DNA from: Phytohabitans rumicis
GTDB taxonomy: Bacteria; Actinomycetota; Actinomycetes; Mycobacteriales; Micromonosporaceae
Assembly (NCBI RefSeq): GCF_011764445.1
Contig: NZ_BLPG01000001.1
Coordinates: 2,418,001 to 2,482,000, forward strand
DNA: 64,000 nucleotides
Direction: 5' to 3'
This document shows positions 25,108-52,733 of the stretch, piece by piece. Made by a program: the position numbers and the translations under genes. The stretch's first letter is position 1, and each line of letters begins with the position of its first letter. Below the pieces are notes generated by a model, which saw nothing but the letters and a program-made list of their open reading frames with translations, ran no database searches and was not told where the DNA came from.

Positions 25108-27963
25108 ATGCGTGACCCCATTGAGACCCTGTTTGAGGAGATCCGGCTGCTTCATCGGCGGGCCGGCGAGCCGAGCACGCGCACGATCGCGCGTAGCCTC
25201 GGGCGAGGCGTGCTGAGCCACACCACCGTCAACGCGGTGCTCCGAGGGTCCCGCGTGCCGCACTGGGGGCCGCTGGAACTCGTCGTCCAGGCACTCGGCG
25301 GGGATGTCGAGCGCTTCAAGGAGCTGTGGCTGGAGGCCCGCGGCGCCTCCGACTCGCCCGCCGCCGTGCCACCACCGCGGATGGCCTCGCCCGCTTCGTT
25401 GATCGGCCGGCGGCAAGAGCTCCGGCTCATGCAGGACTGGGTCACCGACCTGACGACCGGGCAGGGGCGTGCCGTCCTGGTGGAGGGCGCACCTGGCATC
25501 GGCAAATCGGCGCTGCTGCGGACCGCCGCCTCGGAGGCGGTGGCCGCCGGCTGCCAGGTGTTCTGGACCGCGTGCGACGAGCTGAGCCAGGCGTTCCCGC
25601 TGTTGCCGCTGCTCAGCACCATCGACTCTCCCGCAGCCGCCGCCGGCCGGGGCAGGGCCAGGATCGCGGACATCTTCCGCGCCGAGTCCGCCCCGGGCAA
25701 CCAGATGGACCTCGTCGCCGCGGCCACGGAGCGGCTCCTCGCGCTGATCGACGAGCTGTGTACGGCCTCGTCGGTGCTGCTCGTGGTCGACGACCTGCAG
25801 TGGGCGGACCCGGCGACCGTCCGGTGCCTGGGCCGGCTCACGCATACCACCCAGCGACTTCCGCTCCTGGTCGCGGCGGTGACGCGTACCGTCCCGCAGC
25901 GGGCCGACCTGCGCGCGCTGCGCCGCTCGATCGAACCGGCCGCCCGCGTCCGCCTGCACGGCCTCACCGAAGCGGAGGTGACCGAGTTCGTCGCGGGAAC
26001 GGTGGGCGGGGTCCCGGGCCCGCGGCTGCTCAAGCTGGCCTCTGACGCCGGCGGCAACCCGCTGTACCTGACCGAACTTGTCGACGCGCTCGTCCGGGGC
26101 GGCACCGTGACCACCGACATGGGCCAAGTCGAGTTCGCCGCCGGCCGGCCGCCCGAGTCCCTGTCTGCAGCCATCGCCAGCCGGCTGGAGTTCTTGTCGC
26201 CGCTGGTCCGTACCGTGCTGCGGACGGCGGCCCTGCAGGGCGTGAGCTTCTCGGTGGCCGAACTCGCGGTGGTGTCCGGCAAGAGCCTCGGCGAGTTGGT
26301 CCCCCTCCTGAACGAGGCGTCCGACGCCGGCGTGCTCCGCGACGACGGCCACGAGCTGGCGTTCCACCACCCGCTCATCCGGGCGGCGCTCTACGAGGAG
26401 ACATCCGTCCCGACGCGGGCGGCCTGGCACCGCGACGCCGCACGCAAGCTGGCCGAAACGGGCGCGTCGGCGGACCGCGTCGCCCGGCAGCTACTACCGT
26501 CGCTGGAGGCCGCCGGCGGCGACGGGCCGTCTGACGAGTGGATCGTGCGGTGGCTCGCCGAGGTCGGGCAGTCGCTGGTCAACCGGGCTCCCCAGGCGGC
26601 GATATCCCTACTGCGCGTGGCCATGCGCGGGATGCCCGCCGGCGTACGCCCGCGCGACCGGCTGACCGCCACGCTCGCTGACGCCCTCTACCGGGTGGGC
26701 GACGCCGCCGAGGCGGCCCGGGTGGCCGGCGACGCGCTCGACCACGTGTCTGATCCTGACCTGTTGGTCAGCCTGCTGTGGACGCTGACCCAGAGCCGTG
26801 CCGTGCATGGCCGGCATGCGGACTCCCTGGCCACGCTGGAAAGCGCGCTCGACTCGCCGTCGATCGCGCCCCGTCACCGAGCCCGCCTGCTCGTCCTCGC
26901 CGCACGCACACACTGCTTCGCCGGCCGCGTCGACGCCGCCGGCCGGCTCGCCGACGCCGCCTTGGCCACGGCGCTGGCCGCCAACGACCGGTGGGCCACC
27001 AGTTGGGCGCTGGCCGCCCAGACCGTCGTACTCGGGATGAAGGGTGATTCAGCGGCGTCGTTGCCGCTGTACGACCGCGCACTCGCACTGGCCGGCGGCG
27101 ATCCCGCACTCGCCGATCTCCGCCTCGTACTGGGCATCAACCGTGCCGTGGCGCTGGGTAACCTCGACCGCCATGGCGATGCCATCAAGGCGGCGGAACA
27201 GGTGCGCCAGCTGGCCGACGACGCCGGAAACGCCGTCCGGCGGCTCCAGGCGCAGTCCGTCCTGAGTGAGCTGCTGTTCGAGACCGGCCAGTGGGACGAC
27301 GCCCTTGTCGAGACCGACATCGAACGCCACCAGTCGAATGAGCCGGTGACCCTGTGCGTCAGCCTGAGCCTCGCTGCCTTGATCGGGCTGCATCGCGGCG
27401 ACGCGTCGGCGGCCCAACGCCTGGCGAGCGCCGATCGGTACGCAAGCCGGCTCGGCGATCGGGTCCTCGGCCCGTACGTGCTGGCCAAGAGCCTGGCACA
27501 CGAACGTTCAGGTGCGCCCGAGGCGGCCCTCGGTGTCCTGCTCGCCACGCTCGCCAGGACCGAGGACGTGGAGACGGTCGTCGCGGTGCTGGCAAACGCC
27601 GCTCGGCTCGCCGTCGCGGTCGGCGACAAGGCGACCGCTCGATCCGCCGCGGACCGGGCCGTGACCGTGGCGGGTCGGTCGGATATGCCGCGCCGGCAGG
27701 CGATCCTGGCGTACTGCCGTGGCCTGGTCGGCAACGACCAAGCCCTTCTTCTTCAGGCCGCCCGCTACTACCAGGTCGGCAGCCAGGTCCTACCCCGCGC
27801 GCAGGCCCTTGAAGCGGCCGCCGCGGCCGCGGCTGACGCCGGCGACATGGCAGCCGCGCGTTCCCACTTCACCAACGCGCTGTTCCTCTACACGGTCCTG
27901 CACGCCGACTGGGACCTCGGCCGGGTCCACGCCCGGATCCGCGGGTACGGCATCAGCTTGTAA
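25108..27963 (+). CDS. Giant AAA/TPR regulator with an N-terminal HTH, lacking the LuxR domain
   Basis: 951 residues. Residues 1-75 form a helical DNA-binding-like domain ('RTIARSLGRGVLSHTTVNAVLRG' region) also seen in front of other actinobacterial ATP-binding regulators. An AAA ATPase follows: Walker A 'GAPGIGKSALL' near residue 130, Walker B 'LLVVDDLQWADPATV' near 225, then a long TPR-like helical region. It aligns end to end with the protein at 49917-52733 but stops exactly where that protein enters its LuxR helix-turn-helix ('RIRGYGISL' against 'KFRSYGIRRG'). So the two share an ATPase/TPR core with DNA-binding parts at opposite ends. Its stop overlaps the HxlR gene by 11 bases. Confidence 0.82.
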   Translation: MRDPIETLFEEIRLLHRRAGEPSTRTIARSLGRGVLSHTTVNAVLRGSRVPHWGPLELVVQALGGDVERFKELWLEARGASDSPAAVPPPRMASPASLIGRRQELRLMQDWVTDLTTGQGRAVLVEGAPGIGKSALLRTAASEAVAAGCQVFWTACDELSQAFPLLPLLSTIDSPAAAAGRGRARIADIFRAESAPGNQMDLVAAATERLLALIDELCTASSVLLVVDDLQWADPATVRCLGRLTHTTQRLPLLVAAVTRTVPQRADLRALRRSIEPAARVRLHGLTEAEVTEFVAGTVGGVPGPRLLKLASDAGGNPLYLTELVDALVRGGTVTTDMGQVEFAAGRPPESLSAAIASRLEFLSPLVRTVLRTAALQGVSFSVAELAVVSGKSLGELVPLLNEASDAGVLRDDGHELAFHHPLIRAALYEETSVPTRAAWHRDAARKLAETGASADRVARQLLPSLEAAGGDGPSDEWIVRWLAEVGQSLVNRAPQAAISLLRVAMRGMPAGVRPRDRLTATLADALYRVGDAAEAARVAGDALDHVSDPDLLVSLLWTLTQSRAVHGRHADSLATLESALDSPSIAPRHRARLLVLAARTHCFAGRVDAAGRLADAALATALAANDRWATSWALAAQTVVLGMKGDSAASLPLYDRALALAGGDPALADLRLVLGINRAVALGNLDRHGDAIKAAEQVRQLADDAGNAVRRLQAQSVLSELLFETGQWDDALVETDIERHQSNEPVTLCVSLSLAALIGLHRGDASAAQRLASADRYASRLGDRVLGPYVLAKSLAHERSGAPEAALGVLLATLARTEDVETVVAVLANAARLAVAVGDKATARSAADRAVTVAGRSDMPRRQAILAYCRGLVGNDQALLLQAARYYQVGSQVLPRAQALEAAAAAAADAGDMAAARSHFTNALFLYTVLHADWDLGRVHARIRGYGISL

Positions 27964-28288
27964 CGAGCGGGACGCCCGTGCGCTCGGCACGCGCTGCACC
28001 CCAGTCGTAGAGCGCTTGCAACACCGGCGCCAGGCTCCGACCCTCGTCGGTAAGGCGGTACTCGACCCACGGCGTCGAGGCGTCCCGCTCCTGCCGGCTC
28101 ACCAGCCCGTCCGCCTCCAGCTCGCGCAGCCGCTGGACCAGCATCTTCTCGCTCACGTCCGGCATGAGTTTGCGCAGCTCGCCGTACCGGTGCACGCCCT
28201 GCTTCAGATGCGCCAGGATCACCGGCCGCCACTTCCCGCCGACCACGTCGACCGCCAGCTCGACCGGGCAGTGGTAGCGCTTGGCCAT
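27953..28288 (-). CDS. HxlR-family transcriptional regulator
   Basis: 111 residues from ATG 28288, with AGGAG nine bases before it. The winged helix reads 'CPVELAVDVVGGKWRPVILAHL', 'YGELRKLMPDVSEKMLVQRLRELEADGLV' and 'EYRLTDEGRSLAPVL', typical HxlR/DUF24. The single Cys in 'RYHCPVE' matches the redox-sensitive N-terminal Cys of HypR/YodB-type regulators, which respond to quinones, aldehydes or hypochlorite. It is divergent from a truncated haemoglobin gene, 64 bp apart, with a perfect palindrome in the gap. Confidence 0.92.
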   Translation of the reverse strand: MAKRYHCPVELAVDVVGGKWRPVILAHLKQGVHRYGELRKLMPDVSEKMLVQRLRELEADGLVSRQERDASTPWVEYRLTDEGRSLAPVLQALYDWGAARAERTGVPLVTS

Positions 28289-28315
28289 CCGTGGGCTCCT
28301 TACCAAATGGTGCGT

Positions 28316-28327
28316 ACTTGATCAAGT
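28316..28327. promoter_or_regulatory. Candidate HxlR operator (12-bp perfect palindrome)
   Basis: ACTTGATCAAGT, in the 64-bp space between hxlR-type (28288, minus) and truncated haemoglobin (28353, plus) starts. Extended by one base it reads TACT...AGT, like the half-sites of HypR/YodB operators. Position and symmetry fit control of both genes. Confidence 0.55.
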
Positions 28328-28352
28328 GGATCGGGCATGTTGGGCTGTACCC

Positions 28353-28814
28353 ATGGTGCACCCACCGACGCTGTACGAATGGGCCGGCGGCACGGACGCG
28401 TTCGTCCGGCTGTGCGACGCCTTCTACCGGCGAGTCGTCGCGGACGACCTGCTGGCACCCCTGTTCGCGCACATGGATCCCGAGCACGCCCGGTACGTGG
28501 CACTCTGGCTCGCCGAGGTCTTCGGCGGCCCGGCGGCGTACTCGCAGGAGCGGGGCGGCTATCCGACCATGGTGCGCCGGCATGTCGGCAAGGCGATCAC
28601 CGAGCCGCAACGGCGGCGCTGGGTCAACCTGATGATGGACGCCGCCGACGAGGTCGACCTGCCGGCCGACCCGGAGTTCCGGTCCGCGTTCGCCAGCTAC
28701 ATCGAGTGGGGCACCCGACTCGCGGTGCAAAACTCCCAGCCTGACGCCGACGTCGTGCGCGAAGCCCCCGTACCGCGCTGGGGTTGGGGCGTCGCCCCGC
28801 CGTACCAGCCATGA
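28353..28814 (+). CDS. glbO: Group II truncated haemoglobin
   Basis: 153 residues from ATG 28353. The 2-on-2 globin fold is seen in 'LYEWAGGTDAFVRLCDAFYRRV', 'LAPLFAHMDPEHARYVALWLAEVFGG', 'RGGYPTMVRRHVGKAITEPQRRRWVNLM' (proximal His in 'RRHVGKAIT') and a C-terminal helix. The 'YPTMVRRH' and Trp in 'RRWVNL' fit group II (trHbO), with roles in O2/NO chemistry or peroxide detoxification. The Pro/Trp-rich tail 'VPRWGWGVAPPYQP' is unusually long. Divergent HxlR regulator suggests stress-controlled expression. Confidence 0.9.
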   Translation: MVHPPTLYEWAGGTDAFVRLCDAFYRRVVADDLLAPLFAHMDPEHARYVALWLAEVFGGPAAYSQERGGYPTMVRRHVGKAITEPQRRRWVNLMMDAADEVDLPADPEFRSAFASYIEWGTRLAVQNSQPDADVVREAPVPRWGWGVAPPYQP

Positions 28815-28845
28815 CTCGGCCCGCGACGCCGGGGTCCACATCGAC

Positions 28846-28913
28846 CTGCGGTGATCATGGAGTTAGCGTCAGAGGGAGCGCTCTCCCGGACGCTAACTCC
28901 ATGATCACCGCAG
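28846..28913. repeat. Perfect 25-bp inverted repeat after the haemoglobin gene
   Basis: Arms at 28846-28870 and 28889-28913 are perfectly complementary (core GTGATCATGGAGTTAGCGTC) around an 18-base loop. It lies 31 bp after the haemoglobin stop and may end its transcript. No other copy was seen in the window. Confidence 0.75.
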
Positions 28914-28963
28914 CGATTTGAGGGCGCGCGACGCCTACCGGGGCGAGCCCGCCACGGCGCGCC

Positions 28964-29046
28964 GATCAAGGACTTTCGCGTCGATCAAGGGCAAACGGTC
29001 GTGGATCGGAGATCAAAGCACGACCGTTTGCCCTTGATCGACGACA
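28964..29046. repeat. Hairpin repeat, family 1, copy 4
   Basis: Inner stem GGGCAAACGGTCGTG / CACGACCGTTTGCCC is perfectly paired. Lies between the haemoglobin gene and the sugar-importer operon stop at 29104. Confidence 0.8.
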
Positions 29047-29103
29047 AGAGCCGGCGGGCGGCGCGAGCGGGCGACAAGAGCGGGCGGAGCGGGCGGGAGG
29101 GGG

Positions 29104-29943
29104 TTAGCCCTTTACGGCGCCGGCGGTTAGGCCCACGGCTATGTGGCGTTGGATCATGAGGAAGAAGGCGACCACGGGTAGCGCCGTGATGATGGCGCCG
29201 GCCATCAACGGGCCCCAGGCGGTGCCGCGGTTGGTCTGGTTCTGCAGGAGCCAGGCCATCAGGTTCTGCTTCTCCGGGTTGTTGAGCGTGTTGATGATGA
29301 TGAACTCGTTCCACGCCTGGATGAACCCGTAGATCGACGTGGCCACCAGCCCCGGCCCGGTCAGCGGCAGGATGATCCGGTAGAACGTCTGCCACCGGCT
29401 GCAGCCGTCGACCAGGGCGGCCTCGTCGAGTTCGCGGGGCACCGCGGCGATGAAGCCGCGCAGCGTCCACACCGTGTACGGCAGGATCAGCACCAGGTAC
29501 GTGATGCTGACGCCGATGAGGCTGTTGGTGAGGTCGACCCGGTTGAGCATCAGGTAGAGCGGGATGAGCAGGGCGAGCAGCGGCACGAGCTGCACGCCGA
29601 GGATCACCATGATGAACGCGCGCCGCCCGTAGAACCGGAAGCGCGCGATCGCCAGCGCCGCGAGGAAGCCGACGACCAGCGCGCCGGCGACCGCGAACGC
29701 GGTGACGATCATCCCGTTGCGCAGGTCCACCAGGAAGTATGGCGCCTTGATGGCGGACCTGAAGTTGTCGAGGGTCGGGTGCTCCGGCAGGAACGACGGG
29801 GTGAACGACAGCACCTCGGAGGCCGGCTTGAACGCGGTGTTGAGCACCCAGTAGACCGGAAACGCCATGAGCACGACGAAGACGACGCCGACCGTGTTGG
29901 CCAGGATGGTGCCCGCCCGGGAGCGGTGCGAGGTAGCGCTCAT
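29104..29943 (-). CDS. Carbohydrate ABC transporter permease (MalG type)
   Basis: 279 residues with six hydrophobic segments. It has the EAA loop 'DEAALVDGCSRWQTFYRIILPLTGPGL' and the MalG-like C-terminus 'FFLMIQRHIAVGLTAGAVKG'. The gene starts at ATG 29943, overlapping the upstream permease stop by ATGA. Together with the partner permease and the solute-binding protein it forms a CUT1-type sugar importer; no ATPase is encoded here, so the shared MsiK-type ATPase of actinomycetes is probably used. Confidence 0.92.
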   Translation of the reverse strand: MSATSHRSRAGTILANTVGVVFVVLMAFPVYWVLNTAFKPASEVLSFTPSFLPEHPTLDNFRSAIKAPYFLVDLRNGMIVTAFAVAGALVVGFLAALAIARFRFYGRRAFIMVILGVQLVPLLALLIPLYLMLNRVDLTNSLIGVSITYLVLILPYTVWTLRGFIAAVPRELDEAALVDGCSRWQTFYRIILPLTGPGLVATSIYGFIQAWNEFIIINTLNNPEKQNLMAWLLQNQTNRGTAWGPLMAGAIITALPVVAFFLMIQRHIAVGLTAGAVKG

Positions 29944-30899
29944 CAGTCCACGTCTCCAATCATGAACATCTGGCGTACGTAGAAGGCCATCACGCCCAGC
30001 ATCAGCAGCACGGTGATCACCGAGATCGCCGAGCCGAGGCTGTACTCGTTGCGCCCGAACGCCTGCGTGAACGCGTACGTGGCGAGCGTCTGGTACTCCT
30101 GCTCGGGCTTGCTGTCGCGGACCACCCACACCTGGGTGAAGAGGCCGAAGTTCCAGATCACCGACAGCGTGGTGACGATGATGATCAGGGGTCGCAGGAT
30201 CGGCAGGGTGATGTGGCGCAGCGTCTGCCACGGGCCGGCCCCGTCGACGGTGGCCGCCTCGGTCAGCTCGCGCGGCACCTGGGTGAGGCCGGCGTTCAGG
30301 GTGATCGCGAGGAACGGGATGCCGGCCCACACGACCAGCGTGGTGATGACCGCCCAGCCCTGGATCGGGTCGGCGAACCAGCTGTGGTTGGCGAAGTCCA
30401 CGCCGGGGATCTGGTCGATCATGTAGTTGACCACGCCGAAGTCGGCGTCGACCATCCACTTGAAGATCTGCGCGGAGACGAGCTGCGGGATCGCCCAGAC
30501 GAACATCATGGCGACCATCATGGCCAGCCGTACGGGCTTGCTCACCCGGCGCATGAGCAGCGCGACCGCCATGCCGAGCACCACCGAGATCGCCACCGAC
30601 ACGACCGTGAAGATCGCGGTGCGCCGTACCACGCTCCAGAAGACGCCGTCGGTGAGGATCTCTTTGTAGTTCTCGAAGCCCACCCACGGCGGGGACGTGC
30701 CGGCGAAGAGGTTGCGCAGCTGCATGTCCTGAAAGGACAGTACGAGCATGCGGGCGAGCGGGTACGCCAGCAGGCCCGCCAGCAGCACGAGCGCGGGCAT
30801 GGTGAGCAGCAGCGGCATCCGGTTCGGCCGTCGACGGCGCACCCGAATGGGGTCACCCAAGCGCGGTGTCTGCACAACCCGTTCGTCGACGGCCTGCAT
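29943..30899 (-). CDS. Carbohydrate ABC transporter permease (MalF type)
   Basis: 318 residues. After a basic cytoplasmic N-terminus ('RLGDPIRVRRRRPNRMP') there are six membrane helices and the EAA loop 'ELTEAATVDGAGPWQTLRHITLPIL'. The first helix 'LLLTMPALVLLAGLLAYPLARM' and 'LSFQDMQLRNLF' are typical of MalF/UgpA-like CUT1 permeases. It lies 66 bp after the binding-protein gene and overlaps the MalG-type gene. Confidence 0.92.
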   Translation of the reverse strand: MQAVDERVVQTPRLGDPIRVRRRRPNRMPLLLTMPALVLLAGLLAYPLARMLVLSFQDMQLRNLFAGTSPPWVGFENYKEILTDGVFWSVVRRTAIFTVVSVAISVVLGMAVALLMRRVSKPVRLAMMVAMMFVWAIPQLVSAQIFKWMVDADFGVVNYMIDQIPGVDFANHSWFADPIQGWAVITTLVVWAGIPFLAITLNAGLTQVPRELTEAATVDGAGPWQTLRHITLPILRPLIIIVTTLSVIWNFGLFTQVWVVRDSKPEQEYQTLATYAFTQAFGRNEYSLGSAISVITVLLMLGVMAFYVRQMFMIGDVD

Positions 30900-30965
30900 C
30901 GCACTCCTTTCACCAGAGGTAGGGGCCGCGCCGCCGCACAGAGCGGCGGCGCGGCCAAACCGGAC

Positions 30966-32270: not shown

Positions 32271-32299
32271 TGGATCCTCCAAAGGGGGGTGAGGGTGTT

Positions 32300-33124: not shown

Positions 33125-33130
33125 GGGCAA

Positions 33131-33185
33131 CGCCCTTCAGAAAAGAAAGTTAACTAATAGTGGTAATATTTCTTACTGAAGGGCG
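33131..33185. promoter_or_regulatory. Nested dyad in front of the RpiR regulator
   Basis: Outer perfect arms CGCCCTTCAG (33131-33140) and CTGAAGGGCG (33176-33185) share their centre with an inner imperfect dyad, AAGAAAGTTAACTA (33143-33156) and TGGTAATATTTCTT (33161-33174). The region is AT-rich. The outer arm contains the GAAGGG ribosome binding site of the regulator. The inner dyad suits an autoregulatory RpiR operator. Confidence 0.6.
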
Positions 33186-33219
33186 CGCTCTTGTCAAGAG
33201 GCGGAACTCGAAACGTTAT

Positions 33220-35907: not shown

Positions 35908-35929
35908 TGGCTCTACCAGGGCAAAGTGT

Positions 35930-35941
35930 AGTCAAGTGACT
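35930..35941. promoter_or_regulatory. 12-bp palindrome between divergent genes
   Basis: AGTCAAGTGACT lies in the 62 bp between the LuxR-type gene start (35907, minus) and the unknown gene (35970, plus). A site for the LuxR regulator or a separate factor is possible; no further support. Confidence 0.35.
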
Positions 35942-36731: not shown

Positions 36732-37973
36732 AAGGACAAAGGCCGTCGCGGGTCCTTCGCCGTCGCCCAGGCGCCGTGCGTCTTCCGGGTCAATTCCGGG
36801 TACGCCGTGCAACTGCTCCGCCGCCCCCAGGACGATCGCGTAGCGGGTGTCGCCGCGCCGGGTGAACCGCACCGGCAGGCCGTCCGCCGTGGTGGCCTCG
36901 GCGGTGGTCCACGGCCGGGTGCCGTAGATCGCCTCGCCGTTGGCCGCCAGCCACCGCCCCACCTCGCGCAGCACGTCCGCCTGCCCGGCCGGGATCTCGC
37001 CGCGGTCGTCCGGGGCCACGCCGAGCAGCAGGTTTCCGTTCTTGCTCACCACGTCGACGAGCAGGTGCACCAGCTCGGTCGCCGACAGCAGCTGCGCCGC
37101 GGTCTCCTGCCTGTTCCAGCCGAACGACAGGCCCAGCCCGCGCACCGTCTCCCACACATGCGGGTCGATGTCGGGCCGGATCTCGTACTCGGGGCTGCGG
37201 ATGTCGCTGTGCTCGGACATGAACCGGTCGTTGACGACGCCGTCCGGCACGCGCGCGTAGTACTCCGCGAACAGCCGCTCCGGGTCGCCGCCGGCCGGGT
37301 AGCCGATGTCGTTCCAGAGCATGCTCGGCTCGTACCGGTCGATCAGCTCGCGCCAGTGCGCGTTGACGTAGCGGGCGTACTCGGGGGTGTTCGGGATGCT
37401 GAACTCCACGTCGATCTGGCGGTGGATCGGCACGTTGCCGAAGGTCCAGTCCAGGCCGCCGGAGTAGTACAGCCCGTACCGCATGCCCTGGGCCCGGACC
37501 GCGGCGCCCAGTTCGCCGACCACGTCGCGCTCCGTCGACCAGCCGTCCCGGTACGGGTTGGGCGTACGCGACGGCCACAGCGCGAACCCGTCGTGGTGCT
37601 TGGTCACGGGTACGACGTACCGGGCGCCGGCCGCGGCGAACAGGTCGGCCCAGCCGGCCGCGTCCCACCCCTCGACGGCCGCCCGGAAGTCGCCGGCGAA
37701 GTCCTCGTACGGCCGGTCGCCGTACACCTCCTTGTGGTGGTGCCAGGTGGGACTGCCCGTCAAAAGGTAGGAGTTTTGATACCACTCCGCGTAACAGTTT
37801 CGGAATAGTGGGTCACTTTCCGGGTCTCCGTCGGGGCTGTGACCACCCTGCGACAACACCCGAACGACCGCGTCATCCAGGGGTGCCCACGCCGGGATCG
37901 AGTAAAGACCCCAGTGGATCATGATGCCGAACTTGGCATCGCGGAACCAATCTGCCGTCACGCGCACCACCAT
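36729..37973 (-). CDS. GH29 alpha-L-fucosidase
   Basis: 414 residues from ATG 37973. GH29 landmarks are 'DWFRDAKFGIMIHWGLYSIP', 'EWYQNSYLL', 'GARYVVPVTKHHDGFALWPS', 'MRYGLYYSGGLDW', and the nucleophile region 'PSMLWNDIGYP', with 'LVDVVSKNGNLLLGVAPDDRGEI' in the C-terminal part. No signal peptide, so it is probably intracellular and removes terminal alpha-L-fucose from imported oligosaccharides. Its final codons 'ATAFVL' end with TAG formed at the MITE insertion site, and the protein lacks the C-terminal beta-sandwich extension of some longer relatives. A 7-1-7 palindrome covers its start. Confidence 0.9.
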   Translation of the reverse strand: MVVRVTADWFRDAKFGIMIHWGLYSIPAWAPLDDAVVRVLSQGGHSPDGDPESDPLFRNCYAEWYQNSYLLTGSPTWHHHKEVYGDRPYEDFAGDFRAAVEGWDAAGWADLFAAAGARYVVPVTKHHDGFALWPSRTPNPYRDGWSTERDVVGELGAAVRAQGMRYGLYYSGGLDWTFGNVPIHRQIDVEFSIPNTPEYARYVNAHWRELIDRYEPSMLWNDIGYPAGGDPERLFAEYYARVPDGVVNDRFMSEHSDIRSPEYEIRPDIDPHVWETVRGLGLSFGWNRQETAAQLLSATELVHLLVDVVSKNGNLLLGVAPDDRGEIPAGQADVLREVGRWLAANGEAIYGTRPWTTAEATTADGLPVRFTRRGDTRYAIVLGAAEQLHGVPGIDPEDARRLGDGEGPATAFVL

Positions 37974-37986
37974 ACATCCGATGTAT
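37972..37986. promoter_or_regulatory. Palindrome covering the fucosidase start
   Basis: ATACATC C GATGTAT, a perfect 7-bp dyad with a one-base centre. It covers the fucosidase start codon and lies in the 31-bp gap to the divergent gene at 38005; binding here would block both. Confidence 0.5.
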
Positions 37987-38004
37987 TTGGCTAAGGCAGT
38001 ATCG

Positions 38005-39777
38005 ATGCCCATGGAAAGTGCGGCGCCCACCGTCGACCGGGAACCCAGTCCAGCCCCGCCACCGGCACGGTCCGGGGTGAGCGCCGCGATCTGGCGCGTC
38101 CTGCGCCACGAGTGGACCCTCGCGGTGCTCGGCGGGCTCCTGCTCGCGGTCGTGCTGACCTGGCCGACCATGCGCCACCCGGCCACCACCATCCCGGGCG
38201 ACCTCGGCGACCCGACCGTGCAGGCGTGGCAGATGGCCTGGGCCGGGCACGCGCTGCTCACCGACCCGCTGCACCTGTGGGACTCGAACACCTTCTACCC
38301 GGAGACGTACACGTACGTGTACACCGACACCCTGCTCGGGTACGCCCCGGCGGGCATGATCGGCTCCGGTGTCGAGGCCGCCATCATCCGCTACAACATC
38401 ATGTACGTCCTGCTCTACGCGCTCGCGTTCATCGGCGCGTACGCCCTGATCCGCCAGCTCGGCGTGGGCCGGGTCGGGGCGGCGGTCGGCGGCATCGCCT
38501 GGGCGTTCTCCCCCTGGCGGCTGGCCCACGGCGGGCACATGAACATCCTGTCCACCGGCGGCATCGCACTGTCCCTGGCCATGCTGGCGCGCGGCCACGG
38601 CTGGTCGCTGACCCACGGCTACCGTCCCGAACTGCGCAAGCCCGGCTGGGTGGTGGCCGGCTGGCTCACCGCCACTTGGCAGATCAGCCTCGGCTTCGGC
38701 ATCGGCCTGCCGTTCGCGTACTTCCTGATCGCCGCCTGCCTGTTGGCCGCCGCGACGTACGCGATCAGCTGGTGGCGGAAGAAGGCCCGGCCGCCGTTCG
38801 GACGGCGCCTGCTCGTCGCGAACATCATCGGTGGCGCGGTCTTCAGTGTCGTCACGGTCTGGATGGCGCTGGCCTACCTGAAGGTCGTCGAGCTGAACCC
38901 GCAGGGCAAGCGCGGTCTGGAGTGGACGGTGCTGTTCTCGCCGCCGCTCAAGGGCTACTTCACCGCGCCGTGGGAGAACTGGTTCTGGGGCGACCGCCAT
39001 ACCGTCGCCCGCGAGCAGCTGGGCTGGGCCGCCGAGATGGCGCTGCTGCCCGGCATCACGCTGATCGTGCTGGCCAGCGCCGGGCTGTTCTTCTCGGTCT
39101 TCAAGCTGCGGCACCGGATCCTGCTCGGCGCCGGCGTCGTCGGCACCGGCCTGCTCGGGCTCGGCGCCAACCTGGGCGACGACGGCGACCCCGGCTACAT
39201 CACGCTGTCCAGGCACCTGCCCGGCTGGGACGCGCTGCGCACGCCCGGGCGGCTGATGATCTGGATCAGCCTGCTGCTGGCCATCCTCGCCGCGGGCGCC
39301 GTGTGCGCGGCCGCCCGCCAGGCGTCCTTGATCAAACAGCCGGCCGCGTTGGTGCTCCGCGCCGCCCTGGTGGTCCCGCTGGCGCTCGTCTTCGTCGAGG
39401 GCATCAACCGGACCCCGCACCCCGTCGTACCGACCGCCCCGGCCGCCATGAGCGCCGCCCGCGAGCCGCTGCTCATCCTGCCCAGCGACGGGCTCCTGGA
39501 GCTCCACTTCATGCTCTGGACGACCGACGGCTTCCCCCGCATCGCGAACGGGTTGGCCGGCTTCGAGCCCACCACGCAGAGCCAGACCCGGGCCGCCACG
39601 GTGTCCTTCCCGGACCCGACGAGCATCGCGTACCTGCGCGGGATCGGCATCAAGGACGTCCTGGTCCTGCCCCACCTCATCACTGGTACGCCGTGGGAGG
39701 CGGTGCCCACCCGCCCGGTGGACGGCCTAGGCATCACCCGCGAGGAAATCGACGGCGCCATCCTCTTCCACCTCTAG
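38005..39777 (+). CDS. Multi-pass membrane protein, GT-C glycosyltransferase-like
   Basis: 590 residues from ATG 38005. It has about ten hydrophobic segments beginning 'EWTLAVLGGLLLAVVLTWPTM', with a conserved first loop 'GDLGDPTVQAWQMAWAGHALL' and 'LWDSNTFYPETYTYVYTDTL', acidic residues at the place where GT-C enzymes bind metal and lipid-linked sugar, then 'AFSPWRLAHGGHMNILSTGG', and a soluble C-terminal part of about 120 residues ('PLLILPSDGLLELHFMLWTT'). This suggests a lipid-phosphosugar-dependent glycosyltransferase; the substrate is unknown. Divergent to the fucosidase with only 31 bp between the starts. Confidence 0.75.
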   Translation: MPMESAAPTVDREPSPAPPPARSGVSAAIWRVLRHEWTLAVLGGLLLAVVLTWPTMRHPATTIPGDLGDPTVQAWQMAWAGHALLTDPLHLWDSNTFYPETYTYVYTDTLLGYAPAGMIGSGVEAAIIRYNIMYVLLYALAFIGAYALIRQLGVGRVGAAVGGIAWAFSPWRLAHGGHMNILSTGGIALSLAMLARGHGWSLTHGYRPELRKPGWVVAGWLTATWQISLGFGIGLPFAYFLIAACLLAAATYAISWWRKKARPPFGRRLLVANIIGGAVFSVVTVWMALAYLKVVELNPQGKRGLEWTVLFSPPLKGYFTAPWENWFWGDRHTVAREQLGWAAEMALLPGITLIVLASAGLFFSVFKLRHRILLGAGVVGTGLLGLGANLGDDGDPGYITLSRHLPGWDALRTPGRLMIWISLLLAILAAGAVCAAARQASLIKQPAALVLRAALVVPLALVFVEGINRTPHPVVPTAPAAMSAAREPLLILPSDGLLELHFMLWTTDGFPRIANGLAGFEPTTQSQTRAATVSFPDPTSIAYLRGIGIKDVLVLPHLITGTPWEAVPTRPVDGLGITREEIDGAILFHL

Positions 39778-46445: not shown

Positions 46446-46483
46446 GGGCCAGATTCGACATCCTCGATGGAGGTGCCGTCAAT

Positions 46484-46504
46484 AGTTGGGACGGTAAACC
46501 AACT
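46484..46504. promoter_or_regulatory. Dyad upstream of the GH74 gene
   Basis: AGTTGG and CCAACT (6-bp arms, 9-base spacer) stand 39-59 bp before the GH74 start, with GGTTAACC 26 bp further up. Operator-like, owner unknown. Confidence 0.4.
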
Positions 46505-46638
46505 CCGGACTGAGCTCGGTGGGGTTAACCGACTCGGCGGTAACCTAGTGGCCGTACCGCCGAATGCGAAAGCTTGCCAAGGTGGCCGATGATGGGACGG
46601 AAGCCCTGCTCAGAGGCTGTCAAACGGAGGGAAACGCT

Positions 46639-46830
46639 GTGACAGATGCGACACCGTCGGTGAACGACCCCGCGGCCACCACCCCGACGGAAGCGACCTG
46701 CCAGCACTGCGGCCTGTCCCTGGCCCTGGACGACATCTGGGGCTGGGTCCACAAGAACGGCCAGTACCTCTGCTACGACCCCAACACCGGCGAGCCGATG
46801 TCGCTGCCGGCCCAGCCCGCGTACGTCTGA
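46639..46830 (+). CDS. Small Cys-containing protein, unknown
   Basis: 63 residues from GTG 46639 with GGAGGG ten bases upstream. The N-terminus is disordered and acidic/Thr-rich; the second half reads 'ATCQHCGLSLALDDIWGWVHKNGQYLCYD', with C-x-x-C and a third Cys, so one metal or disulfide site of a broken zinc-ribbon type is possible. No family known to me. Downstream gene on the same strand begins 18 bp later. Confidence 0.6.
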   Translation: MTDATPSVNDPAATTPTEATCQHCGLSLALDDIWGWVHKNGQYLCYDPNTGEPMSLPAQPAYV

Positions 46831-46848
46831 CGGCGGTAGGGTGTCGGC

Positions 46849-47210
46849 GTGGAGGTCGGCGCCAAGCTGCAGATCCGTACCGGCCAGCGGGTAGCCGTGC
46901 TGGACGCCCCGCCGAGGTCGCGGTCGCGCTGCCGGACGGCGCCACCCGAGTCACCGAGGCCGGCGAGGCCGACGCGGTGATCGCGTTCGTCCTGGACAAC
47001 GCCGGACTGGCCGGCCAGGCCACCGCCGCCACCCTCGACGCCGCCCGCGCCGACCGGCTGGCCTGGATCGCGTACCCGAAGGCCGGCCAGCTCGGCACCG
47101 ACCTCAACCGCGACCGGCTCGCGGCGACGCTCGCCGGCCGCGGCGTCCGGCCGGTACGCCAGGTCTCGATCGATCCAGTCTGGTCCGCGCTCCGCTTCCG
47201 CCCCGCCTGA
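46849..47210 (+). CDS. Conserved hypothetical protein (one frameshift as read)
   Basis: About 120 residues after repair. From GTG 46849 it reads 'VEVGAKLQIRTGQRVAVLDA', then 'EVAVALPDGATRVTEAGEAD', 'VIAFVLDNAGLAGQATAATL', 'LAWIAYPKAGQLGTDLNRD', 'ATLAGRGVRPVRQVSID' and 'WSALRFRPA'. The strings 'WIAYPK..', 'TDLNRD' and the final 'WSALRFRP' are shared by a widespread bacterial protein of unknown function, sometimes labelled DUF3052-like. Frame break at 46907-46910 is repaired by one C. Likely cytoplasmic. Confidence 0.65.
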
Positions 47211-47582
47211 CCACTCCCGCTCGCTCGCCGCGCCCTCCCCGCGAGCTCTCCTCGCGGGCTCTTCTCGCGCGGGCCGCGCCCTCCTCGCGCGGGCCGCGCC
47301 CTCCTCGCGCTGGCCGCGTCGATCAAGGGCTCCCTCGCCGATCAAGGGCATATGGCCGCGGTTTGATCTCCGATCCACGACCGTATGCCCTTGATCGACG
47401 CACAAATCCTTGATCGACGCGGCGGGAGGCGGCGCGGTGTCGCGCCATGCGCGGCGCATCGCGCCGCGAGCCGCGGCGGCGCCGCGAGGTCGGCGGGCCG
47501 CGGAGGCGGGCGGACGGGGTGATGGGGTCGCGGGACGGGGGTTTCGGGTCCACGATGGAAAGGTCAGGCCAAGGGAGGCAGC
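47211..47582. repeat. 372-bp gene-free stretch: 20-bp tandem repeat and family-1 copy 5
   Basis: A 20-bp unit (CTCCTCGCGCGGGCCGCGCC) is present three times at 47261-47320, the outer copies with one to two changes. It runs directly into a family-1 hairpin at 47321-47420 (inner arms of type GGGCATATGG). The rest is GC-rich with no supported gene. Confidence 0.7.
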
Positions 47583-48194
47583 ATGCCGCGTCTGTTGCCG
47601 CGCATCTCGCCCGAGCCGCCGCCGGAGTACGTGGCGTTCGTCGAGCACCATCTCGACGCGCTCCGGCGCGACGCGGCCCGGGTCGTGGGTACCGAGCGGG
47701 ACGCCGACCACCTCTATCCCGACGTGCTGACCGATGTCGCGACCCGGTGGCGCTGGCTGGAGTTGCAGCGCACCCGCCTGCGCCAGCCGGGGGCCACCGA
47801 TCTGTACCTGCGGCGTGCGTTCAGCCGCCGGGCGGAGCACTGGCAGGCGCCCGAGTTGCTGCCGCTCGACGCCGACGTGTGGCCGGTGGAGGTGCAGGTG
47901 TGGTCCGCCGGCACGGTCGAGCCGCCGGGACCGCCGCTGCGCCCGGCCCTGTCGAGCGTCGCCCTCCGGCTCGCGCCGCACCTGGACCCGACGCAGCGCC
48001 CCAGGGCTGGGCCGCTGGGCGAGGCGGCGGTGGCGTGGTGGCACGCCTGCGAGACACACCGGCGCCGGCGCAGGATCGCCGCGGTCGTCGTCGCCCTCGT
48101 CCTGCTCGCGCTCACCAACCGGCTGCCGCAGGACGAGCGGGTACGCGCGGAGGGGGTTGCGCTCCGGCCGGATCGGAGTACTGTATCGATTTAG
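47583..48194 (+). CDS. Putative membrane-associated protein, unknown
   Basis: 203 residues from ATG 47583, purine-rich GGGAGGCA before it. The first 165 residues are soluble and Arg/Leu-rich ('YVAFVEHHLDALRRDAARVVG', 'DHLYPDVLTDVATRWRWLEL', 'YLRRAFSRRAEHW'), which resembles the N-terminal helices of sigma-factor-like or DUF-type proteins but without the DNA-binding part. Near the C-terminus is one helix 'RRIAAVVVALVLLALTNRL'. A tail-anchored protein is likely. The stop lies within the LacI operator region; LacI starts 37 bp on. Confidence 0.65.
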   Translation: MPRLLPRISPEPPPEYVAFVEHHLDALRRDAARVVGTERDADHLYPDVLTDVATRWRWLELQRTRLRQPGATDLYLRRAFSRRAEHWQAPELLPLDADVWPVEVQVWSAGTVEPPGPPLRPALSSVALRLAPHLDPTQRPRAGPLGEAAVAWWHACETHRRRRRIAAVVVALVLLALTNRLPQDERVRAEGVALRPDRSTVSI

Positions 48195-48213
48195 AAGCAC
48201 TGGATCGATACAG
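48181..48213. promoter_or_regulatory. Candidate LacI operator
   Basis: Perfect arms CTGTATCGAT (48181-48190) and ATCGATACAG (48204-48213), separated by 13 bp and ending 18 bp before ATG 48232. Probably an autoregulatory site for the LacI-family protein. Confidence 0.6.
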
Positions 48214-48231
48214 AAGGACCGGCCCGACGCC

Positions 48232-49301
48232 ATGAAGCCCACGCTGCAGACCATCGCCGATGCCGTCGGCGTATCGCGCAGCACCGTCTCCAACGCGTAC
48301 GGCCGGCCGGACCAGCTCTCCCCGAGCTGCGCGAGCGGATCTTCGCGGCGGCTCGGGAGCTGGGCTACTCGGGGCCCAACCCGACGGCCCGCTCGCTGCG
48401 CCGGGGTCGCGCCGGGGCGATTGGAGTGCTGTTCACACCAGCCCTGTCGTACGCGTTCACCGACCCGTACGCGGTGCAGTATCTGCGCGGGCTGGCCGAG
48501 GTCGCCGAGCGTCACGAGACAGGGCTGCTGCTCGTGCCGCTGGCTGCCGACCCCGAGGGCGCCCTGAGCGCCGTGCAGAACGCGGCTGTCGACGGCTTCT
48601 GCTTCTACTGCGTCCCGGAGTGGTACCGGGCGATGGCCGCCGCCCAGGCACGCGGCCTGCCGGTGGTGAGCTCCGAGCAGCCGGGCGAGAGCTGGCCGGA
48701 CGCGTACTTCGTCGGCGTCGACGAGGTGGCAGCCACCCGCGTGGCAGGCGAGCACATCGTCCACCTCGGACACCGGCGCATCGCGGTGATCGGCGACTAC
48801 CTGAGCACCGACCGCGCGACCCGCCTGCTGAGTGTGCCGGCGCCCGAGGACCTGCCGTCGTACGTGAGTCGCGAGCGGCTGCGTGGCTACCGCGACGCGT
48901 TTCGCGCCGGTGGTCTGGAGTGGACGGAGATCGTCACCGTCAACGCCCACGGCAACAGTCGCGAGGAGGGTGCGGCCGCCGCGGCGTACGCGCTCGATCG
49001 CGCACCGCGCCCCACGGCGGTGGTGGCGCTGACCGACATCCTCGCGCTGGGGGTCCTGGACGCGGTCGCCGCGCGGGGCCTGCAACCGGGGCGGGACGTG
49101 TCGGTCGTCGGCTTCGACGACATCCCGGATGCGGATGGCGCTCACCTGACCACCGTCCGGCAGCCGGCCTTCGAGCGGGGCCGCATCGCCGGAGCACTGT
49201 TGCTCGAACCGCCGACCGACCCGGCTGGCCGGCACGTCGTCCTGCCCACCGAACTCATCGTCCGGGCCTCCACCGGTCCGGCACCGACAAGGGGTATCTG
49301 A
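48232..49301 (+). CDS. LacI-family transcriptional regulator (one frameshift as read)
   Basis: About 356 residues after repair. N-terminal LacI HTH 'TLQTIADAVGVSRSTVSNAYGRPDQLSP', hinge helix 'ERIFAAARELGYSGPNPTAR', then the periplasmic-binding-like effector domain ('GAIGVLFTPALSYAFTDPYAVQYLRGLAEVAERHETGLLLVPL', split across strands; 'VDGFCFYCVPEW', 'FVGVDEVAATRVAGEHIVHLGHRRIAVIGD', 'DVSVVGFDDIPDADGAHLTTVRQP'). The break at 48320-48323 is repaired by one C. Sugar-sensing repressor; its own operator lies just upstream. It has no transport or enzyme gene beside it, so targets are elsewhere. Confidence 0.88.
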
Positions 49302-49504
49302 TGTTGGATCCAACCGCCATGATCCTCGCTGACAAGGCGACCCGGCACCACGTCATGTCCGCCCGGCCGGCAGCGCCTACCGCGCCCGAACGCCCGCCGC
49401 GGCAGCGCGCCGAGGGCATGCGTCTCGCCGCCGCCGTGGTGCTGCGCCGGCTGGCCGACCGGGTTGAGCCGCGCCGCGTGGAGACCTGCGTACCCGCGTC
49501 GTAG
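49301..49504 (+). CDS. Small protein coupled to LacI, unknown
   Basis: 67 residues. The ATG 49301 shares its A with the LacI stop (TGATG), a sign of translational coupling. The sequence 'MLDPTAMILADKATRHHVMS' followed by a Pro/Arg-rich linker and 'AAAVVLRRLADRVEPRRVE' has no recognised domain. Basic, soluble. Confidence 0.45.
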   Translation: MLDPTAMILADKATRHHVMSARPAAPTAPERPPRQRAEGMRLAAAVVLRRLADRVEPRRVETCVPAS

Positions 49505-49569
49505 GCGGCCTTCGTAAGTCACTAAGGTGGCGGATTTCTCGTACGTCCCGCTCCGCGACGCTAGGTCAT

Positions 49570-49782
49570 GTGAGCGTTATGCATCGAGGCGACGAGGACC
49601 TCCACTACAGCGACAACTCCCACCGCTGGATCGCCCCGCCGGAGATCGACCAGGCCATCTGGGAGGCGGGTCTCCGGGCGCACATGGCCCAGCACCGTTC
49701 GACAATGGGTGGCCCCTTCAACATCAACGAGCTGATAGAGGTGCCGCCTCCGCGGCGCATTCCGCGGCAGCGGGCAGCTTAA
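49570..49782 (+). CDS. Small protein, unknown
   Basis: 70 residues from GTG 49570 or, more likely, the ATG nine bases later. It reads 'HRGDEDLHYSDNSHRWIAPPEIDQAIWEAGLRAHMAQHRS' (in two parts), 'GPFNINELIEVPPPRRIP'. Tyr/Trp/His-rich first half, no membrane segment. Codon use is GC3-rich like true genes. It converges on the LAL regulator, with a 31-nt palindrome between them. No family recognised. Confidence 0.5.
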   Translation: MSVMHRGDEDLHYSDNSHRWIAPPEIDQAIWEAGLRAHMAQHRSTMGGPFNINELIEVPPPRRIPRQRAA

Positions 49783-49833
49783 CCAGTCGTCAGTCACGCA
49801 GCGGCAGGTCTTGGATTTCCAGGGCCTGCCGCG

Positions 49834-49864
49834 CTCTGCGTTTTGCATTATGCAAAATGCAGAG
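49834..49864. terminator. 31-nt palindrome between convergent genes
   Basis: CTCTGC-TTTTGCAT-T-ATGCAAAA-GCAGAG, one mismatched pair. AT-rich core, unusual for the region. It lies between the small gene (ends 49782) and the LAL gene stop (49917), so it may terminate either; a similar 13-mer occurs at 53258-53270. Confidence 0.5.
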
Positions 49865-49916
49865 CGATTCGCCCTGTTTGCCGTCCGTTAACCTTGCCAC
49901 CCGCCCTTAACGAACG

Positions 49917-52733
49917 CTAAGCGGTGGCGCGCAGGCTCACCTCGCGCGCAATCTCGGTGCGCGAATGCAGGTTGAGCTTGGCGAGGATGTGCGATACGTG
50001 CGTCTGGACGGTGCGCCGGCTCAGGAAAAGGTGGGCCGCGATCTGCGGGTTCGACATTCCGTCCGCGACCAGCCCGGCAACCTTGATCTCGGTCGGGGTA
50101 AGGCTGCTCCAGCCGTGGTCGGCCCGACGGTGCCGCACGTGCGGCCCGCGCCGGATGCCGTACGACCGGAATTTGGCCTGCGTACGGGCCAGATCCCACT
50201 CGGCGCCCAGGTCGCTGTAGAGGGAGAACGCGGTGGTGAAGTGGGCTCGCGCGCCGGCGACGTCACCGCGCTCGGCCAGCGCCGCGCCGGCGGCCTCCAG
50301 CGCCTGTGCCCGCGGCAGCGGCCGGCCGGCGGCCTCGTAGTGCTGGGCGGCGCTGAGCAACAGCTCTGGGTCGCGGTCGAGCAGGCCACGGCAGTGCGGC
50401 GGCAGTGCGATGTGGTGCGGCACGTCGGACGTACGCGCGACTTCCTCGGCCTGCTTGACGACCGTGCGGGCGGCCTCGAAGTCGCCGACCTCGATGGCGA
50501 GCCGGACGGCGTCGGCAAGCAGGTCGGCGGTTGTCTCGGTGTCCTCGGTCTCGGACAGCCCGGCCATGAGCACCGCGAGCGCCTCGACCGGATCGTCGGC
50601 CTGCTCCCGGTTGAGGCTCTTGGCTAGCGCCAGCACACCGATGACCCGATCGCCGAGTTGCGCGGCGTATCGCTCGGCGTCCGCGAGATCCTGCCCGGCC
50701 GTCGGGTCCCCACGATGGAGCCGAATGACGGCGGCCACGCCCCGGTCGCAGCACTCCACCACTGGGCTCTTGGAAGCGCCCGGCGCGGGCTCGATCTCCA
50801 CCAGCGCGTCGTCCCAGCGCCCGGCCAGGAATAGGAGCTCGCCGAGAACGCTCTGCGCCTGCCCGAGCCGGACCATGTTTCCGGCCTCGTCGGCCAGCTG
50901 ACGCCCGTGCTCGGCCGCGCCGATGGCCGCGTCCAAGCGATCGAGATGGACGAGAGCAACGGCGTGGTTGATATGCAGCGACAGCCGGAGGTCGGCCAGG
51001 CCCGGGTGTCCCTCGGCGACGGCGAGGGCCCTGTCGAAGAGCGGCAGGCTTCGGGCCGCCTCGCCACGCATGCCCTGCACGACGGTCTGCAACCCGAGCG
51101 CCCACCCGGTGGCCCACCGATCCCCGGACTCGGTGGCCGCGGCGAGCGCGGTGGTCGCGACCTGGCCGGCCGTGTCCACACGGCCAAGGAGGCACTGGGT
51201 ACGCGCCTTCAGCACCAGCAGCCGGGTGCGGTGCTGCCGGCCCACCATGGGCCCGTCCAGCGCACGGTCCAGCGCGGCGAGCGCCTCCTCAGCCCTACCC
51301 TGCATGCTGCGGCATTGCGTCAACGTCCAGTGCAGGTCGACGAGGTAGTCCGGGCGGGTCACGTATTCGAGCGCGCTCGTCGCCACCTCAGCCGCACTGG
51401 CGGCGTCGCCCGTCCGGTAGAGGGCATCGGCGAGGCGGCAGGCAAGCAGGTCGTGCGGTGCCACCCCGGCGGGTATCGCCGCCACCGCTCGGCGCAGGAG
51501 CGGGATCGCGGCACCCGGCGCACGAGCCACCAGCCGCTGGCCGGTGTCGACCAGCCACTGCACCATCCACTCGTCGGCCACGCCGGCGGTGCCCTCATCC
51601 TGGAACGCGGGCAGCAACTGCCGGGCCACCCGCTCGGCCGGGGCACCATTGTCGGCGAGTGCGCGAGCGGCGTCGCGGTGCCAGGCAGCCCGGACGGCGA
51701 TCGGCAGCTCCTCGTAGAGGGCGGTGCGGATCAGCGGGTGCCGGAACGCCAGGGCGAAGTCGTTTTCCCGCAGGACGCCCGCGAGGATCGCCTCGTCGAG
51801 GACCGGCATCAGCTCGGTCACCGTCTGGCCCGACGCCATCGCGAGCTCGGACACCGAGAAGTCCACGCCCAGCAGCGCCGCGGCGCGCAGCGTGCCGCGC
51901 CCGGCCGGGGAGAGGAACTCGAGCCGGTCGGCGATGACGGCGGCCAGCGAGCCCGGCGTCTTCGTACCGGTTGCCTCGATCGTGCCGTTGTCGGTGGTCA
52001 GCGCGCCTGCCCGATCCAGTGCCGCGACCAGCTCGGTGATGTACAGCGGGTTGCCGGCAGCGCCAGCGGCCAACCGGAGCAGGCGGGGGCCCGGCGTGCT
52101 GCCGGCTGCGTTGGCGACCAGCTCGCCAACCTCGACTTCGGAGAGGCTGTGCAGCCGCATGCGGGACGCCGGCTCGATCGTGCGACCCAGCGCCTTCAGG
52201 TCTTCCCGCCGCGGTACCGGGCGCATGACGCCGACCACGAACAGGGGAAGCTGGCGCACCGACCGCACCAGCCGGCCCAACATCTGCACGGTGGCGGGGT
52301 CGGCCCACTGGAGGTCGTCAACGACCAGCATGACCGGGATGTCCGTGCACAGCTCGTCGACCAGCGCCAGCAATCGCTCGGTGGCGGCGGCGACGTGATC
52401 GACGCCGTTGCCCGGCGCGGACTCGATGCGGAGCAGCTCCAGGATCTCGGCCTGACCGCCGCTGTCGACGGGCGCGGACTCCAGGGCGTCGAGCAGGGGA
52501 AGCAACGGGAACGCGTGGCTCAGCTCGTCGCAGGACGCCCAGAAGACCTGGCAGCCGGCCGACTTCGCCTCGTCCGCAGCGGCGCGCATCAGCGACGACT
52601 TACCGATACCCGGCTCGCCCTCGACAAGGACGGCCCGACCGCGCCCGGCGGCGAGGTCCGAAATCCAGCTCCGCGTCCGATCGAGATGACGCTGACGCCC
52701 GATTAGCGATGGGGCAAACCGCGTCTCGACCAT
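49917..52733 (-). CDS. Giant LuxR-family ATP-binding regulator (LAL type)
   Basis: 938 residues from ATG 52733. AAA domain with Walker A 'GEPGIGKSSLMRAA' near residue 38 and Walker B 'LVVDDLQWADPATV' near 133; then a long TPR-like region and a C-terminal LuxR HTH 'LTPTEIKVAGLVADGMSNPQ' / 'AAHLFLSRRTVQTHVSHILAKL'. It is a full-length homologue of the regulator at 25108-27963 but has its DNA-binding domain at the other end. It probably activates a target regulon in response to a ligand bound by the AAA/TPR part. Upstream, divergently, is a short possible peptide gene (53023). Confidence 0.9.
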   Translation of the reverse strand: MVETRFAPSLIGRQRHLDRTRSWISDLAAGRGRAVLVEGEPGIGKSSLMRAAADEAKSAGCQVFWASCDELSHAFPLLPLLDALESAPVDSGGQAEILELLRIESAPGNGVDHVAAATERLLALVDELCTDIPVMLVVDDLQWADPATVQMLGRLVRSVRQLPLFVVGVMRPVPRREDLKALGRTIEPASRMRLHSLSEVEVGELVANAAGSTPGPRLLRLAAGAAGNPLYITELVAALDRAGALTTDNGTIEATGTKTPGSLAAVIADRLEFLSPAGRGTLRAAALLGVDFSVSELAMASGQTVTELMPVLDEAILAGVLRENDFALAFRHPLIRTALYEELPIAVRAAWHRDAARALADNGAPAERVARQLLPAFQDEGTAGVADEWMVQWLVDTGQRLVARAPGAAIPLLRRAVAAIPAGVAPHDLLACRLADALYRTGDAASAAEVATSALEYVTRPDYLVDLHWTLTQCRSMQGRAEEALAALDRALDGPMVGRQHRTRLLVLKARTQCLLGRVDTAGQVATTALAAATESGDRWATGWALGLQTVVQGMRGEAARSLPLFDRALAVAEGHPGLADLRLSLHINHAVALVHLDRLDAAIGAAEHGRQLADEAGNMVRLGQAQSVLGELLFLAGRWDDALVEIEPAPGASKSPVVECCDRGVAAVIRLHRGDPTAGQDLADAERYAAQLGDRVIGVLALAKSLNREQADDPVEALAVLMAGLSETEDTETTADLLADAVRLAIEVGDFEAARTVVKQAEEVARTSDVPHHIALPPHCRGLLDRDPELLLSAAQHYEAAGRPLPRAQALEAAGAALAERGDVAGARAHFTTAFSLYSDLGAEWDLARTQAKFRSYGIRRGPHVRHRRADHGWSSLTPTEIKVAGLVADGMSNPQIAAHLFLSRRTVQTHVSHILAKLNLHSRTEIAREVSLRATA

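Follow-up and report, generated by a model that had tools for sequence, protein, structure and literature searches.

A putative XRE-type head on a LAL-derived STAND protein of Phytohabitans rumicis that lacks the LuxR domain of its close paralogue

How do two closely related regulators in one genome come to carry their putative DNA-binding domains at opposite ends of a common core? The question is raised by a 64,000-nucleotide stretch from the genome of the soil actinomycete Phytohabitans rumicis (contig NZ_BLPG01000001.1, positions 2,418,001 to 2,482,000; hereafter the window, whose numbering is used below), in which a first-pass annotation had singled out two genes as giant paralogous regulators. 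Both open reading frames (ORFs) are found where that annotation placed them and encode proteins of 951 and 938 amino acids (aa), which we call P1 and P2. Their size is not exceptional, as about 950 aa is an ordinary length for large ATP-binding regulators of the LuxR family (LAL), and the LuxR-headed relatives found here mostly measure 900-980 aa. We consider it probable that P1 arose by duplication from a LuxR-headed protein, through loss of the LuxR head and gain of an N-terminal helix-turn-helix (HTH) of the XRE type, which would provide a second output on the same sensor class. Both proteins combine a nucleoside triphosphatase (NTPase) of the STAND class (signal transduction ATPases with numerous domains) with tetratricopeptide repeats (TPRs), and their features are as follows (pLDDT, predicted local distance difference test score of the structural model).

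25108..27963, + strand: P1, putative XRE-headed STAND/LAL-type protein of 951 aa without LuxR domain, intact frame
25108..25341, + strand: P1 N-terminal head, residues 1-78 (AlphaFold2 pLDDT 90, alignment of 37 sequences)
Within this head, + strand: modelled helices at residues 4-18, 24-31, 38-46 (the recognition-helix position), 53-62 and 67-77 or 67-82
25342..25398, + strand: flexible linker of P1, residues 79-97 (pLDDT below 50 at 81-95)
25399..26142, + strand: STAND/AAA_16 NTPase region of P1, about residues 98-345 (PF13191; strand/helix pattern of the model)
25486..25509, + strand: Walker A of P1, residues 127-134, GAPGIGKS (from sequence)
25777..25794, + strand: Walker B of P1, residues 224-229, LLVVDD (from sequence)
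26407..27948, + strand: helical TPR solenoid of P1, about residues 434-947 (PF13424; helical hairpins in the model)
49917..52733, - strand: P2, LuxR-headed LAL regulator of 938 aa without N-terminal domain (Pfam)
52233..52706, - strand: AAA_16 of P2, residues 10-167 (PF13191, E 3.4e-24)
49944..50108, - strand: C-terminal LuxR/GerE HTH of P2, residues 876-930 (PF00196, E 4.6e-18)

In a BLASTP alignment, residues 97-949 of P1 and 9-860 of P2 were identical at 505 of 853 positions (59%) with one gap, and this alignment spans the NTPase and the TPR parts alike, which bears out the earlier proposal that the two match over their whole core and not in the AAA domain only. Pfam placed PF13191 at residues 98-255 of P1 (E 1.2e-22) and the TPR family PF13424 in both proteins. 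When the organism's own genome (10.7 Mb, 3 contigs) was searched with P2, the long matches were P1 at 59%, one protein at 39% and a remainder mostly at 27-35%; matches confined to the LuxR domain of P2 were short and reached up to 55% identity. Since the next long match after P1 is only 39% identical, P1 and P2 are, judged by sequence, a true close pair within a genome rich in LAL-type proteins.

The core of P1 appears complete. In an alignment of 20 proteins, G127, G130, G132 and K133 of Walker A and D229 of Walker B are invariant, and D228 is nearly so. The predicted structure of full-length P1 (pLDDT 86) retrieved in Foldseek the STAND-TPR protein 6mfv at rank 1 (E 2.6e-11) and MalT (8bob) at rank 4 (E 2.4e-6), with many TPR proteins among the matches. 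The modelled overall fold is accordingly that of an NTPase followed by a helical part and TPRs, as in STAND proteins with a TPR sensor of the MalT and 6mfv type. What P1 lacks is the C-terminal output: it ends 2 residues beyond the last residue aligned to P2, the linker and GerE domain of P2 are unmatched in P1, and Pfam found no GerE in it, all in keeping with the earlier observation that P1 stops before the LuxR domain that P2 possesses in full. Because this domain is missing, and no LuxR remnant was present in three frames of the 800 bases 3' of P1, the sequence identifies P1 as a LAL-derived protein and not as a member of the LAL family.

At the other end, the helix-turn-helix-like N-terminus that the first-pass annotation had suspected was recovered as a predicted five-helix fold of about 78 residues with the HTH at helices 2-3. 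The top matches of this head model in the PDB were mostly of the XRE/Cro-C1 class with weak E-values, and a solved-structure search with the head alone returned nothing at E 10. The best Pfam HTH for the P1 N-terminus was HTH_50 (E 0.04, under the cut-off), and HTH_31 was detected at E 0.1 or below in 12 of the 37 aligned sequences, which include the P1 head (best 6.6e-8). Neither BTAD nor Trans_reg_C was among the 15 families that Pfam reported for P1 at E 1 or below. On the model, the P1 head is an XRE-type HTH with a putative DNA-binding role. LSHTTV.AVL.G.RVP.W is invariant across the three P1-type heads, and the best-conserved part of the head runs from the recognition-helix position onward. 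The same head family is found on NB-ARC, NACHT, GT4-conflict, pentapeptide, YukD and peptide-deformylase proteins; its presence on proteins as different as the GT4-conflict, peptide-deformylase, pentapeptide and YukD proteins of loci L087, L077, L084 and L078, respectively, marks it as an N-terminal module that has been shuffled widely. A first head scan of the named genomes gave 22 pattern matches and no relatives, and in the window tblastn with the P1 head gave no match below E 0.28 except P1 itself.

Heads were surveyed across 113 related cores, 35 from genomes of the family Micromonosporaceae and 78 from the scan of named genomes, leaving out core matches below 180 bits or 700 residues and near-copies of the 35. 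LuxR alone was carried by 76 cores, an N-terminal Streptomyces antibiotic regulatory protein (SARP) head together with LuxR by 17, SARP alone by 15 and XRE alone by 4, with 1 undetermined; the set was selected by similarity to P1 and P2, and its proportions are not population frequencies. Where a protein is cut by the end of its locus, as L154_1 is, a head may be missing for that reason, and L189_8855, whose head was not found, was omitted from the tree. BTAD was detected by Pfam in six of eight proteins scanned. A family match in G020 (54-949, beginning inside the P1 head) proved to be SARP-headed without LuxR. XRE and LuxR heads occurred together in 0 of the 113 cores. Absolute exclusion of one head by the other is nevertheless false in general, as the more distant protein L200 (554-3649, - strand) is two-headed, its single AAA_16-TPR core standing between an XRE-type N-terminus and a GerE HTH at the C-terminus; also among the more distant AAA_16 proteins, L201 is an XRE-only tandem pair.

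In phylogenies of the cores, XRE forms were nested among LuxR forms. The two from Phytohabitans formed a pair (support 100/99) amid LuxR forms in a 35-row tree, and in a 112-row tree the XRE forms fell into two separate clades of LuxR-headed proteins, the SARP-headed cores found here lying on a different branch from P1. On the larger tree 3 state changes were needed for XRE and 6 for SARP-only. A single origin of all four XRE-headed cores was rejected there by the approximately unbiased test (p-AU 8e-101), from which we conclude that, by core phylogeny, XRE-headed cores arose at least twice independently. One clade for the three Micromonosporaceae forms was allowed and preferred in the 112-row test (p-AU 0.586); a 35-row mixture-model tree placed the form in genome G090 apart from the two Phytohabitans forms, with a single clade not rejected (p-AU 0.095). 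Among 47 heads compared, those nearest to the P1 head were from G090 (68%) and G002 (63%), the nearest to the G090 head were those of P1 and G002, and the nearest to the G002 head were P1 (63%), the peptide-deformylase head of L077 (60%) and G090 (58%). The head of the fourth protein, L141, was 30-37% identical to the three Micromonosporaceae heads. The simplest reading of these sequences is that a fusion took place once in Micromonosporaceae and once more, separately, in the line of Nocardiopsaceae. The first-pass notion of an output swap therefore survives as modular exchange on a common core, which alignment, model, trees and census support; that one module moved between the ends does not, because LuxR and XRE heads belong to different HTH families.

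The P1-type form is rare. A LuxR-type orthologue was present in all six Phytohabitans genomes searched and an XRE form in two of them (G000 and G002); 150 genomes of the family added one XRE form, in G090. When 300 family genomes were searched with the P1 head, the same 3 genomes gave matches at E 2.1e-48 or below, the best match after these (1.5e-27) lying on a different kind of protein, and no further P1-type protein was found in 397 genomes of the order (1e-22) or 394 of the class (1e-14). Rare forms may have escaped these searches, which scored 5 candidates per genome in the 150-genome family set and 13-18 in the 300-genome family, order and class sets. The fourth XRE-headed core without LuxR, L141, came from a Nocardiopsaceae metagenome-assembled genome among the named genomes; a LuxR form, L131, is present in that genome as well. 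A LuxR-headed relative was thus present in 4/4 genomes found with a related XRE-only core, so that in this direction the two forms do occur together; the XRE form is missing from most genomes that have the LuxR form.

Rates of change differed between the parts of the protein. Head identities among the three P1 relatives were 72, 61 and 54% and core identities 48, 49 and 45%; against P1, heads were 61-72% and cores 48-49% identical. In the 35-row tree, tip branches measured 0.35-0.74 for XRE forms; of the six Phytohabitans LuxR forms, that of G004 had a branch of 0.30 and the other five had branches of 0.05-0.14. With head identity above core identity and long XRE tip branches, the P1 core diverges fast while the head is conserved, a pattern that fits a re-purposed sensor and fits decay less well.

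The surroundings of the two genes differ as well, and include the following features.

27953..28306, - strand: HxlR regulator gene, convergent with P1 (PF01638, E 9.4e-31)
28281..28814, + strand: truncated-haemoglobin (Bac_globin) gene of the P1 block (PF01152, E 1.3e-17)
49570..49779, + strand: small conserved ORF of about 70 aa, HYSD.SHRW.(A/S)PP, start codon uncertain (tblastn)

An HMGL-like lyase gene (PF00682) and ABC-transporter genes (PF00528/PF01547) flank a block made up of P1, the HxlR gene and the globin gene. Of the six Phytohabitans, only G000 and G002 have the whole block, and P1 is inverted in the latter. G001 and G005 have the lyase gene immediately next to the ABC genes, without the P1 block, and in G004 the lyase gene is followed by a gene like that at 37906-39774 of the window, with neither the P1 block nor the ABC genes matched. 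In G003 (L071) the gap between lyase and ABC genes holds a shortened globin match where the P1 block otherwise sits, and sequence resembling the end of the HxlR gene was read by eye beside it; given these two traces, the G003 lineage probably once possessed the block, at least in part, and lost it. Two of the four XRE-form genes have a gene for a NACHT protein nearby (L054, 16468-18276, - strand; L141, 2205-4523, - strand), and neither NACHT protein has an XRE head.

On the side of P2, the small ORF stands tail to tail with LuxR-type genes in all six Phytohabitans (window included), in Asanoa and in Virgisporangium, and was found in 7 of 80 named loci. It had no Pfam match, and none of the three XRE-form loci that were searched, L052, L054 and L141, gave a match to it; from its position, its product is a candidate partner of the LuxR form. 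Upstream of P2-type genes, a comparison for fully conserved runs of at least 11 bases, covering five of the six Phytohabitans (the G002 region was not located), revealed a 15-base block at 53004-53018 that is conserved in all five, occurs once in the window and is possibly an operator. It is absent before P1, and no upstream motif was common to P1 and P2. As the block does not precede P1, and P1- and P2-type genes lie more than 1 Mb apart in G090, we see no evidence for the cross-talk between the loci that had been suggested. Below E 0.6, tblastn of the whole window with the LuxR end of P2 found only P2, 33241-33402 (E 1e-8) and 57745-57900 (E 1e-4). The former belongs to a third, distant LAL protein located between P1 and P2 (33241-35886, - strand; AAA_16 and C-terminal GerE, 30% identical to P2), and the latter is a LuxR-domain-like stretch on the - strand, 31% identical to the P2 LuxR end. 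A large SARP-NB-ARC-TPR regulator (54547-57681, - strand; BTAD E 9.5e-38) also lies near P2 and adjoins an S-adenosyl methyltransferase gene (PF04672).

P1 shares parts of its layout with several known systems. LAL/MalT-type LuxR regulators consist of an AAA_16 NTPase, a TPR solenoid and a C-terminal GerE domain; P2 fits this description fully, whereas P1 has the same core without the LuxR HTH that names the family. The SARP-LAL regulators PimR, SanG, PolR and FilR, as portrayed in excerpts of PMC3367932 and PMC10972967, resemble P1 in having an N-terminal head on a LAL-type ATPase core without LuxR HTH, but the PimR head is a SARP (OmpR-type HTH plus BTAD) and that of P1 an XRE-type HTH of about 78 residues without BTAD. 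AfsR (SARP-NOD-TPR) likewise joins an N-terminal DNA-binding head to a STAND NTPase and a TPR sensor, with a SARP head and a different NTPase/TPR core. Finally, actinobacterial XRE-headed NB-ARC/NACHT-TPR proteins have the same head family as P1 on another NTPase family that is not closely related to the LAL core. Judged by titles and abstract openings, we found no published case of an XRE-headed LAL; for a head exchange like that of P1 the literature offers a precedent in SARP-LAL regulators such as PimR, and the XRE head is a new variant.

According to the same excerpts, the LAL-type half of PimR, which follows an N-terminal SARP, works without a LuxR HTH (PMC3367932), and the N-terminal DNA-binding head of AfsR can be controlled by its NTPase and TPR part (excerpts of PMC10936776). 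On these two grounds P1 would be expected to work likewise with its XRE-type head. In the reading that we favour, P1 and P2 are paralogous STAND-type transcription regulators (large ATP-binding, MalT/LAL-like), each with an NTPase switch and a TPR sensor. P2 retains the ancestral layout, with the LuxR HTH after the TPR solenoid, and in P1 the head is tied directly to the NTPase by the flexible linker of about 19 residues. At rest, contacts between NTPase and sensor presumably hold such proteins inactive; an inducer would bind the TPRs, ADP/ATP exchange would lift autoinhibition, and the NTPases would oligomerise, bringing the heads together on an operator other than that of P2. A second output may in this way be wired to the same sensor class, as in SARP-LAL regulators and AfsR. 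The independent origins, together with the distant two-headed relative, suggest that an N-terminal head can render a C-terminal one dispensable. A broader scenario, which we regard as a rather long shot, is that LAL-family STAND cores swap output heads repeatedly, the XRE module shared with NACHT, NB-ARC and conflict-type proteins taking over a LuxR sensor through a two-headed stage like L200 and making a receptor wired to another network, while only the LuxR form keeps the small tail-to-tail partner gene.

Other explanations of P1 were weighed against its reading as a duplicate with an exchanged head. Its head could instead be a protein-interaction adaptor of the actinobacterial STAND/conflict-system kind, P1 being a converted receptor, perhaps in defence or cell death, and no longer a transcription factor. 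We judge this unlikely, though worth keeping in mind, as the same head caps NB-ARC, NACHT and conflict-type proteins and NACHT genes lie near two XRE-form loci. However, both NACHT neighbours lack such a head, the best-conserved head residues are at and after the recognition-helix position, PADLOC gave no match for P1 at E 0.001, and the HMGL-like, HxlR and globin genes beside P1 make no recognisable defence locus.

We think it quite improbable that P1, as a duplicate, is degenerating or dominant-negative and acts mainly by modulating P2 through mixed oligomers. Such a role would agree with the long branches of the XRE forms, with the failure to find P1-type genes in four of six Phytohabitans and with the 59% identity of the common core; yet the frames are intact in three genomes, the Walker motifs are kept, the head is conserved above the core, which is unexpected of a decaying gene, P1- and P2-type genes are far apart in G090 and the conserved P2 upstream block is missing before P1. 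An assembly or annotation artefact, in which a missed frameshift conceals the LuxR end, might be suspected because P1 stops just where the LuxR linker would start, but it is refuted: three frames of the 800 bases downstream of P1, L023, L031, L141, L201a and L201b contained no LuxR domain, and this end is equally missing in three family genomes. A pseudogene is likewise out, there being no LuxR remnant beyond P1 and no XRE remnant within 800 bases 5' of P2, with frames open in three genomes.

Read as a LuxR-headed duplicate with an exchanged head, P1 adds a second type of head to the precedent set by SARP-LAL regulators. Together with P2 it constitutes a natural experiment, in which two cores of one genome, 59% identical with one gap, bear unrelated heads of the DNA-binding type, one at the N-terminus and the other at the C-terminus, and the pair allows a test of whether a STAND switch signals regardless of which end bears the output.
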